Of a stretch of DNA of 64,000 bases, positions 24,119 through 26,939 are shown piece after piece. The translations under genes and the position numbers were made by a program. The number at the start of each line of letters is the position of its first letter. The first letter of the stretch is position 1. Source of the DNA: Candidatus Kapaibacterium sp. (GTDB lineage Bacteria > Bacteroidota > Ignavibacteria > Kapaibacteriales > UBA2268); assembly GCA_938031175.1 (NCBI GenBank), contig CALHGZ010000009.1, positions 1-64,000 on the forward strand, given 5' to 3'. The notes under the pieces were generated by a model. The model was given only the letters and a program-made list of their open reading frames with translations, was not told the DNA's origin and ran no database searches.

Positions 24119-24841
24119 TTATTTATTGCTAATTCTATCTTTTATTGTTTCAATAATTTCTGATAGTTCATTAAATTCATTGAGAAAGAATGATGAATAG
24201 AGATAGCTTTTGCTGCTTTTGATTATAAGGGTGAAATTCATTTGTTCTTCATCTGAATGCAATCGTATCTGGAATTTACCCATTTGAAAATCATCGGAAA
24301 TTTTGGGTGTAGTATTTGAATCTAATATTTGTTGGGTCATGTGTTGATTTATTAAAGCGTATTCTTCCTCATATTCGATATCTGGGGGTAGAATTGGTTC
24401 AGATGCAAGTTGGCGGGCAATTTTATCGCATTGTTCATTTTCTTTAATACCGGAATGTCCTTTGACCCATACAAATTCAATCATATGAGGTTTAGCAAGA
24501 GTGAGGAGTCTTTTCCATAAATCAACATTTAATACTCTATTGCCTTCTTTCTTTTTCCAGTTCTTTTTCTCCCAATTCCTGATCCAATTTTGATTGAATG
24601 CATCTACAATGAGCTTTGAATCTGTATAAATTCTAATACTGAGTCCTTCCTTATCAGCTAAATAGTTAAGGGCTGCAATTACAGCCATCAATTCCATTCT
24701 GTTATTGGTTGTAAGACGAAATGCTCCTGAAATAGTTTCAGTTTTTTCACTTGTTTTAATTACAGCAGCAAAGCCTCCTGGTCCAGGATTTCGTAAGCAA
24801 GCACCATCAGTGAAAATAGTTACATCAACATCATTATCCAT
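24119..24841 (-). CDS. rnhA: Ribonuclease HI with C-terminal extension
   Basis: Residues 1-150 are a complete RNase HI: FTDGACLRNPGPGGFA (first catalytic Asp), TTNNRMELMAV (catalytic Glu), IYTDSKLIVDAF (Asp), a basic handle IRNWEKKNWKKKEG, and VKGHSGIKENEQCD (His and last Asp). It removes RNA from RNA-DNA hybrids. About 90 further residues form an extra domain (about 160-240) containing a strand pattern around FQIRLHSDEEQMNFTLIIK, absent from standard 155-residue RNases HI; I do not recognise it. The gene is divergent from the umuD-like pair. Confidence 0.93.
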   Translation of the reverse strand: MDNDVDVTIFTDGACLRNPGPGGFAAVIKTSEKTETISGAFRLTTNNRMELMAVIAALNYLADKEGLSIRIYTDSKLIVDAFNQNWIRNWEKKNWKKKEGNRVLNVDLWKRLLTLAKPHMIEFVWVKGHSGIKENEQCDKIARQLASEPILPPDIEYEEEYALINQHMTQQILDSNTTPKISDDFQMGKFQIRLHSDEEQMNFTLIIKSSKSYLYSSFFLNEFNELSEIIETIKDRISNK

Positions 24842-24942
24842 ATTAGAATCTCAAAATACTTTGCAAATTTTGCAAATATAATATTTTAATTCAAAAAAAT
24901 TTTATTATATTTACGATGCTATTCCGGGGGGGACGGCAGTAT

Positions 24943-24958
24943 TACTCTTTCAGGAGTA
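24943..24958. promoter_or_regulatory. Inverted repeat upstream of the first umuD-like gene, candidate operator
   Basis: TACTC-N6-GAGTA lies 31 bases before the ATG at 24989, downstream of a possible -7 element TATATTTA (24906-24913). It may be a repressor site for this presumably damage-inducible operon, or simply a leader hairpin. The LexA consensus of this lineage is unknown to me. Confidence 0.3.
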
Positions 24959-24988: not shown

Positions 24989-25417
24989 ATGGGACACTAC
25001 CTTGAGTTATTGCGTATAAAATTCTCAGAATCTGAGAAGGTCCCTTTATTCTCAATGTCGGTATCAGCAGGCAAACCGATACCTGTTGAAGATGATATCG
25101 AGATGGAGATTGATCTCAATGAATTTTTAGTGGAGCATCCTGCTTCTACTTTCTTTGCTCGTTTCCATAGCAATAATGAATCATTTGCTGGAATATCTAA
25201 TGGTGATCTACTTATAATTGATACTGCTATATCACCTAAAGATGGCAAAATCGTCGTTGTCGGATATAATAATGAAATCACCTTGAAAATATACCGTGTA
25301 ATTAATGGCGAGGAATTTTTCGAATCTTACGATGGTAAATTAATGACAAGGCAGATTGAACCTTTGATCGAGCTTAAATTGCTCGGGGTAGTAACTAAGG
25401 TTATTCACTCTCTATAG
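24989..25417 (+). CDS. UmuD-like protein with cleavage site but catalytic Ser replaced by Asn
   Basis: This S24/UmuD-family protein of 142 residues aligns without gaps to E. coli UmuD (offset 3, from memory of that sequence). PLFS, IDLN, HP, NGDLLIID, K-D-G and the final GVVTKVIHSL all fall in register. The self-cleavage position (Cys24-Gly25 in UmuD) is Ala27-Gly28. The general base Lys97 is Lys100. The catalytic Ser60 position (in GDSM) is Asn63, within SNNE. A Ser two residues later (Ser65) would require a gap. The protein therefore looks like a cleavable but inactive substrate. GGAGG precedes the ATG by 6 bases. It is followed after 23 bases by a second UmuD homologue with the opposite defect. 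Confidence 0.85.
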   Translation: MGHYLELLRIKFSESEKVPLFSMSVSAGKPIPVEDDIEMEIDLNEFLVEHPASTFFARFHSNNESFAGISNGDLLIIDTAISPKDGKIVVVGYNNEITLKIYRVINGEEFFESYDGKLMTRQIEPLIELKLLGVVTKVIHSL

Positions 25418-25440
25418 TTGAATAATTAGTTCAATAAATT

Positions 25441-25863
25441 ATGAGAGCTAGAAAAAAGGGAGCCATCAAAAAGAAATATTATTTCGAAGCGGAGTTATTT
25501 CCAGCATCCGTTCCATTGTCACTATCAAAGTTTGAACCGACATTGCAACAAATTGATCTGACAAATGTTTTGGCACCTCAGTCTAAAAATATCTACCTCG
25601 TGAAAGTTAACGGTGAAAGTATGATTGATGAGCATATTTACGATGGGGATATTCTCATTGTGGATAAAAATGAAGTGCCTAAGGATGGGTCAATAGTTAT
25701 CGCCGCTTTAAACGGAGAATTAACAGTAAAAACCTTTAGGATGATAGAGGGCAAACCTTATCTTTTCTCTGCGAATAAAAAGTTTTTGCCAATTGAAATA
25801 GGTGATTTAATGCAATTCGAAATACAAGGGGTTGTAAAACACGTAATTAAAAATCTTGTTTAA
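25441..25863 (+). CDS. UmuD-like protease with intact Ser-Lys dyad but Val-Pro at the cleavage site
   Basis: This S24-family protein of 140 residues happens to number exactly like E. coli UmuD: VNGESM places Ser60, and GELTVK places Lys97. The downstream strands (YDGDILIVD, IQGVVKHVIKNLV) are typical. At residues 24-25, where UmuD has Cys-Gly, it has Val-Pro (ASVPLS); a Pro after the scissile bond would normally block cleavage. The N-terminus is unusually basic (MRARKKGAIKKKYY). It should be an active peptidase unable to process itself. Its partner with an A-G site but no Ser lies directly upstream. Its stop overlaps the stop of the convergent dinB by 4 bases. Confidence 0.87.
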   Translation: MRARKKGAIKKKYYFEAELFPASVPLSLSKFEPTLQQIDLTNVLAPQSKNIYLVKVNGESMIDEHIYDGDILIVDKNEVPKDGSIVIAALNGELTVKTFRMIEGKPYLFSANKKFLPIEIGDLMQFEIQGVVKHVIKNLV

Positions 25864-26939
25864 AAATCAAGGCTTAGCTGGCTGGTTAATTTATCATCTT
25901 CATTCTTCAATGTGGAAAGTTGTAAACCTAGTAGTCTTACCGGTTTGACTGGTGCAACTGGAGTAAACAAAAGTTCTTTTGCTATTGTAAATAGTTCGTA
26001 TTCTGGATTAATAAGAAAATTAAAGGTTTTACTTCTTGTTTTGGTTTCAAAGTCGGAATAGCGGATTTTTAATGTTACAGTTTTGCCACGAAGATTTCTT
26101 TTTTTGATCCTATTAATCAAGATATCACATATACTTTTCAAAGCCTCGAGTAATTCATCCAGCTCAATTATGTCTTCGTCGAAAGTTCTTTCCGCACCTA
26201 TTGATTTTCGTTCATATTCAATTGTAACCGGACTAAACCATTGATTCCTAATAACTTTATAGTAATAAATTCCTGTTTTGCCAAAGAATTTAGTTAATTC
26301 TTCGAGAGAGAATTTTTTTAAATCAGCACCATTATAAATTCCTAACTTGTGCATTTTTCTCTCAGTGACTTCACCTATATATGGTATTTTCCCTATGGGT
26401 AATTTATCAATGAATTTATCAGCTTTTTCAGGTGGAATAACCATTAATCCATCTGGCTTTTTATAGTCGGAAGCAATTTTAGCTAAAAATTTATTAAATG
26501 ACACTCCGGCAGAAGCAGTCAATTTTGTTTGCTTTTTTATTTCAGCCTTAATTAATTTAGCAATAGTTGTTGCTGAAGGGATATTTTTTTTGTTTTGTGT
26601 AACGTCGAGATATGCTTCATCGAGAGACATAGGTTCGACAAGGTCAGTATATTCAAAGAAAATATTCATAATTTGCAGTGAAACTTCCCTATATACATCG
26701 AAACGTGGTTTTACAAATATTAATTGCGGGCATTTTTTCATTGCAATTACAGAGGGCATAGCTGAATAAATTCCGTATTTTCGGGCTTCATAGCTAGAGG
26801 CAGCTACAACACTTCTCCGCTCGGGATAACCAACAGCAACGGGTTTTCCTCTTAATTCTGGATGGTCTCTTTGCTCAATGGATGCAAAAAAAGCATCCAT
26901 ATCAATATGGATTATCTTATGACTATAAAGGTCATCCAA
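25860..26939 (-). CDS. dinB: DNA polymerase IV (DinB, Y-family)
   Basis: This translesion polymerase has 359 residues. Y-family motifs are HIDMDAFFASIEQ (11-23, first metal Asp), AASSYEARKYGI (about 46-57), and SLDEAYLDVT near 102-111 (catalytic Asp-Glu). The helix-hairpin-helix thumb region lies near 170-205 and the little-finger domain after about 235. The extreme C-terminus QLSLDF is a sliding-clamp-binding motif. It ends tail-to-tail with the second umuD-like gene (4-base overlap). It is downstream of the ADP-forming synthetase gene with 13 bases between, so it may be co-transcribed with housekeeping genes. No umuC is in the window, so this polymerase could be the partner of the UmuD-like pair. 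Confidence 0.95.
   Translation of the reverse strand: MDDLYSHKIIHIDMDAFFASIEQRDHPELRGKPVAVGYPERRSVVAASSYEARKYGIYSAMPSVIAMKKCPQLIFVKPRFDVYREVSLQIMNIFFEYTDLVEPMSLDEAYLDVTQNKKNIPSATTIAKLIKAEIKKQTKLTASAGVSFNKFLAKIASDYKKPDGLMVIPPEKADKFIDKLPIGKIPYIGEVTERKMHKLGIYNGADLKKFSLEELTKFFGKTGIYYYKVIRNQWFSPVTIEYERKSIGAERTFDEDIIELDELLEALKSICDILINRIKKRNLRGKTVTLKIRYSDFETKTRSKTFNFLINPEYELFTIAKELLFTPVAPVKPVRLLGLQLSTLKNEDDKLTSQLSLDF

Follow-up and report, generated by a model that had tools for sequence, protein, structure and literature searches.

UmuD, LexA and lambda CI are textbook self-cleaving switches in which protease and substrate reside in one chain. The window analysed here, a stretch of 64,000 nucleotides from a Candidatus Kapaibacterium genome, holds two adjacent UmuD-like genes and raises the question of whether these two roles can be divided between two proteins. 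The first gene (P1; 24989-25417, forward strand, 142 aa) encodes a UmuD-like S24 pseudo-protease that is a candidate dedicated substrate. The second (P2; 25441-25863, forward strand, 140 aa) encodes a UmuD-like S24 protease with the Ser60-Lys97 dyad and without the cleavage site, a candidate trans-acting protease. Both reading frames were present as described in the first-pass annotation, on the same strand with 23 bases between them. They are flanked by rnhA (24119-24841, reverse strand), divergent from P1, and by dinB (Pol IV; 25860-26939, reverse strand), which is convergent with P2 and overlaps its final 4 bases. The earlier remark that the pair abuts dinB thus holds in the window but not elsewhere: in no other genome does dinB lie next to the pair, and because this adjacency is not conserved in relatives we left dinB out of the system. 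No conserved neighbour gene was found among the pair loci of relatives; rnhA lies near the pair in some of them too.

Both proteins match the Pfam family Peptidase_S24 (PF00717; P1, 1.9e-14; P2, 1.5e-23). It is the sole Pfam family to reach the cut-off in either, and both are single-domain proteins; no DNA-binding family was detected in them by Pfam, and neither has an N-terminal domain of the LexA or UmuDAb type. A sequence search of the PDB matched both to E. coli UmuD/UmuD', and their top fold matches were the UmuD/UmuD' structures 1umu, 1ay9 and 8gmt; both stay below the NCBIfam cut-offs. AlphaFold models, made from few input sequences, have cores that match UmuD' and arms with pLDDT <50.

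From the cleavage site to Lys97, the alignment of P1 to E. coli UmuD is gapless, with Ala-Gly at positions 24/25, Asn in place of Ser60 and Lys at Lys97. In its own numbering, Ala27-Gly28 lies within V25-S-A-G-K-P30 (codons at 25061-25078, forward strand), which corresponds to the cleavage motif V-x-A-G-x-P in the alignment to the UmuD site; Asn63 (codon AAT, 25175-25177, forward strand) replaces the catalytic Ser, and Lys100 is retained, all as originally claimed. P2 carries Ser60-Met-Ile (Ser codon AGT, 25618-25620, forward strand) and Lys97 (codon AAA, 25729-25731, forward strand) and lacks the Ala-Gly site, again in agreement with the initial reading, but the Val24-Pro25 reported at the site depends on the alignment. 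The P2 arm aligns uncertainly around the site, where ungapped numbering gives Val-Pro and MAFFT gives Leu-Ser, and by no alignment does V-x-A-G-x-P appear. Compared with the features expected of UmuD, both proteins have the S24/UmuD' fold and the sequence similarity; P1 has the C/A-G site and lacks the Ser-Lys dyad, and P2 has the dyad and lacks the site.

Separate P1 and P2 profiles were searched over the family of the window genome (54 genomes), its order (123) and a class sample (391); many of these genomes are fragmented draft assemblies, and absences should be read accordingly. P1 was detected in 38 genomes, namely 37/54 of the family and one genome of another family in the same order (G044), and P2 was detected in the same 38. 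At the thresholds used, G044 was the only genome with the pair outside the family in the 123-genome order set and the 391-genome class sample. The two genes are adjacent and on the same strand in 36/38 genomes; in G003 and G027 they lie on different contigs, and both are still present. Some P2 copies are incomplete or odd (truncated in G030, cut by a contig end in G077, and identical to a sister copy over the last 90 residues in G072), and P2 occurred without P1 only as a broken copy in a 76% complete genome (G011). Among reasonably complete genomes, co-occurrence of P1 and P2 is exceptionless, unlinked cases included. Among the records that carry the pair is JANJUO010000367.1 (G012:C98, L036), from the MAG bacterium isolate RXS1_metabat.bin.37.

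Across these orthologues, the site and the dyad are conserved reciprocally. In P1, the V, A, G and P of the cleavage motif are invariant (38/38 orthologues, 17 genera), while position 60 holds Ser in 8/38 and one of N, A, M, D, E and F in the rest; at position 97, K is found in 26/38 and R in 12/38, and the dyad as a whole is intact in 8/38. In P2, Ser60 is kept in 37/37 orthologues and Lys97 in 36/36 with data; the full V-x-A-G-x-P occurs in no copy, and an A-G dipeptide lies near the site in 8/37, the nearest approach to the motif being F-K-A-G-K-P in genus g20. Weighting by genus (17 genera) placed V22, A24, G25 and P27 (E. coli numbering) as the top four of 129 P1 columns by conservation and S60 as 111th, and in P2 it left S60, M61 and G58 invariant, the catalytic loop as a whole invariant or almost so, and site columns 22, 23, 24, 25 and 27 at ranks 105th-121st. 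Tree-based site rates gave a similar picture, with V22 at rank 1, A24 at rank 4 and S60 at rank 106 of 129 in P1, and S60 at rank 2 and columns 24/25 at ranks 122/120 of 127 in P2, where the cleavage-site region is among the fastest-evolving parts of the protein. P2 orthologues also carry a conserved arm motif, [FY]-x-F-E-A-P-x-x-x-A (25477-25506 in the window, where E stands in place of P), which was not seen in UmuD and is possibly a new docking segment; the linker after it is hypervariable and contains indels.

As controls, 71 non-redundant phage UmuD-like proteins had Ser60 in 71/71, Lys97 in 70/71 and C/A-G in 71/71, and canonical UmuD homologues of the same order had site and dyad intact in 11/11. 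Loss of the Ser is exceptional outside P1 (0/71 phage relatives, 0/11 canonical homologues of the order), and the orthologues together with the 71 phage controls rule out chance or mis-alignment as the source of the pattern. Asn63 and Val-Pro, which the first-pass annotation took as states that might be conserved and always co-occur, did not prove to be so: the genes co-occur in 38 genomes, but position 60 of P1 varies, and what P2 conserves is the absence of V-x-A-G-x-P. The proposed split, with one protein as substrate only and the other as protease only, fared better, and we consider it supported by evolutionary evidence in the form of reciprocal conservation over 17 genera and almost perfect co-occurrence.

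In a quick tree (SH-aLRT 93, 99 and 94), P1 forms one clade and P2 another, sisters to each other and not to the canonical UmuD of the same genomes; a single tandem duplication produced both P1 and P2 from a umuD-like gene. Position 60 underwent at least 12 residue changes on the P1 tree. The P1 copy of G044 is basal and has an intact dyad, and the P2 of that genome is already without V-x-A-G-x-P, from which it appears that site loss in P2 came before dyad loss in P1 and freed the P1 Ser to go. An intact Ser in the first protein, treated earlier as an observation that would speak against the division, was indeed found in the eight copies counted above, but the basal G044 copy is among them, and we read this as a likely ancestral Ser followed by repeated later loss.

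On the sequence evidence, it is probable that a UmuD-like gene was duplicated and its jobs divided, with P1 as a pseudo-protease substrate and P2 as a protease that cuts P1 in trans. P1 would be kept as a substrate, with the arm and its V-x-A-G-x-P preserved and the catalytic Ser and Lys not, and P2 would be kept as a protease, with its dyad preserved and no longer cuttable at the UmuD site. P2 would most likely pair with P1, as UmuD subunits do, and cut it between Ala27 and Gly28, probably under stimulation by RecA-ssDNA, and the product P1' would resemble UmuD'. One conceivable output might be the removal of a replisome-contacting P1 arm. Trans-cleavage would most simply explain why the chain lacking the dyad keeps V-A-G-P and the chain lacking the site keeps the dyad. 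Eleven genomes with the pair have no detected canonical UmuD, and four of them, in g24, have a P1 that has lost both Ser and Lys; P2 is therefore the natural candidate for the protease.

A precedent comes from E. coli, where intersubunit cleavage is established for engineered UmuD variants (PMC5342242; see also McDonald et al. 1998 on intersubunit UmuD cleavage, as cited in PMC4552617). Specifically, the arm of UmuD S60A is efficiently cut in vitro by the non-self-cleaving UmuD18 in heterodimers, in a manner dependent on RecA-ssDNA (PMC5342242). As in the pair, one partner is active and not self-cleaved and the other is dead and cleavable, so that the P1 and P2 states look like this experiment made by evolution; however, UmuD18 and UmuD S60A are lab mutants of one gene, whereas P1 and P2 are two natural, diverged paralogues. 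Against trans-cleavage, the eight P1 with Ser and Lys might cleave themselves, eight P2 have an A-G dipeptide near the site, and the g20 sequence comes close to the motif.

It is also conceivable that the P1 motif is conserved for docking and not for cutting, the P1 arm sitting in the P2 active site and being rarely or never cut, with P1 as an inhibitor or dimer partner. Docking and cutting are indistinguishable from motif conservation alone, and AlphaFold places the P1 arm without confidence, yet we regard such a pseudosubstrate as unlikely: V, P and the scissile Ala-Gly itself are all invariant, just as they are in canonical UmuD copies of the order, and the full dyad of P2 (37/37 Ser, 36/36 Lys) would be needless in an inhibited scaffold. 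Another S24 protein of these genomes could instead be the protease, P2 having some other substrate or role. Besides an intact UmuD (C1:119652), the window genome does encode two additional S24 proteins, but the eleven pair genomes without a detected canonical UmuD, and the exceptionless co-occurrence of P1 and P2 in reasonably complete genomes even when unlinked, make this rather improbable. Both docking without cutting and another S24 protease appear less likely to us than cleavage of P1 by P2 in trans.

A third reading dispenses with proteolytic coupling altogether: P2 would be permanently UmuD'-like, P1 permanently uncleaved, the two a fixed heterodimer and the motifs structural. HumD of phage P1, a UmuD homologue that lacks the cleaved arm, shows that UmuD'-like forms can have a gene of their own, although both proteins of the pair score below the cut-off of the NCBIfam HumD model; we know of no dedicated substrate partner of HumD. 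The arm motif that P2 gained would also fit this reading. Nonetheless, we find it very unlikely, as a structural dyad would then be invariant in P2 yet drifting in P1, although both proteins share one fold. That P1 is an ordinary decaying duplicate, as its degenerate catalytic loop might suggest, is scarcely credible and already contradicted by its dN/dS of 0.01-0.10 in eleven congeneric comparisons, its retention in 37/54 family genomes and its invariant columns over 17 genera. These dN/dS values are as low as those of P2, so P1 is under strong purifying selection, functional and maintained rather than a pseudogene.

The output of the pair probably does not act as a subunit of Pol V. The initial proposal of a translesion-synthesis switch was not borne out: UmuC was found in 29/37 genomes with the pair versus 12/17 without it (Fisher p = 0.73, independent), and the pair was likewise independent of any Y-family (IMS-domain) polymerase (p = 0.70). 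Canonical UmuD, in contrast, called by profile score and by eye, tracks UmuC (36/37 UmuD genomes with UmuC, Fisher p = 2e-7). We did not find umuC beside the pair in these genomes, nor co-occurrence of the two beyond chance. Seven genomes with P1 and P2 had no IMS-domain match at E 1e-15, with sub-threshold ImuB-like proteins possible; they include G016 and G019 (both 99% complete), G062 (98%), and G027 and G034 (both 92%). It is the retention of the pair where no Y-family polymerase was detected that argues against a Pol V subunit.

The P1 arm retains P-[LF]-[FY] (cf. P16-L17-F18 of UmuD), and in E. coli the uncleaved UmuD arm is important where the contact between Pol III alpha and beta is disrupted (PMC5342242); a replisome-facing role of uncleaved P1 is therefore possible by analogy. 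More tentatively, and leaning against rather than towards it, one may picture a bipartite system of a RecA-activated S24 protease and a pseudo-protease substrate that arose by UmuD duplication and would serve DNA-damage signalling without a Y-family polymerase, for example by timing a replication checkpoint.

The pair shares its fold and size with E. coli UmuD/UmuD' (and MucA), the autoproteolytic subunit of translesion polymerase V, and the parts of P1 and P2 combined make up one UmuD. It differs in that UmuD is one gene, whereas here two genes each have half the chemistry, without an adjacent umuC. Other S24 proteins have been re-purposed for the DNA damage response, such as UmuDAb of Acinetobacter and LexA-like repressors of Bacteroidetes (PMC8565304); these combine a DNA-binding domain with self-cleavage, whereas P1 and P2 consist of the S24 domain alone. 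In the open-access literature, no earlier description of such a split UmuD pair was found. The pair would represent a lineage in which the two roles of a self-cleaving switch lie in two genes, and offers a direct test of why self-cleavage usually stays in one chain. It also bears on the extent of natural intersubunit cleavage and on how RecA chooses protease and substrate. That the pair persists where no Y-family polymerase was detected suggests that UmuD can have a role outside Pol V.

Upstream of P1, an inverted repeat TACTC-N6-GAGTA (24943-24958) is present in the window and absent from relatives. Inspection by eye of 37 upstream regions showed no common palindrome as a candidate LexA-type operator. 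A GGGGGGA or GGGGGA run often lies directly 5' of the P1 start codon in relatives. In the window, a run of this type is found at 24927-24933, ~60 bases 5' of P1; the pattern is no more frequent in the window than expected by chance.

The window genome has five S24 proteins in total (canonical UmuD, P1, P2 and two more), and a LexA DNA-binding domain was recognised in none of them. The two further proteins (L002, G000:C4:117339-117638; L004, G000:C1:33165-33446), of 142 and 220 aa, have the Ser and Lys, but an Ala-Gly site is not apparent in either. Proteins of the 220-aa type, 210-238 aa long, turn up in many genomes of the family and show no known DNA-binding domain in Pfam. A full-length umuC (L138, G000:C4:216670-217914) has no adjoining umuD, and the canonical umuD (L129, G000:C1:119652) lies on another contig, between prohibitin-like and aminotransferase genes. 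In other genomes of the family (g8, g25, G003 and G060), umuD and umuC are adjacent.
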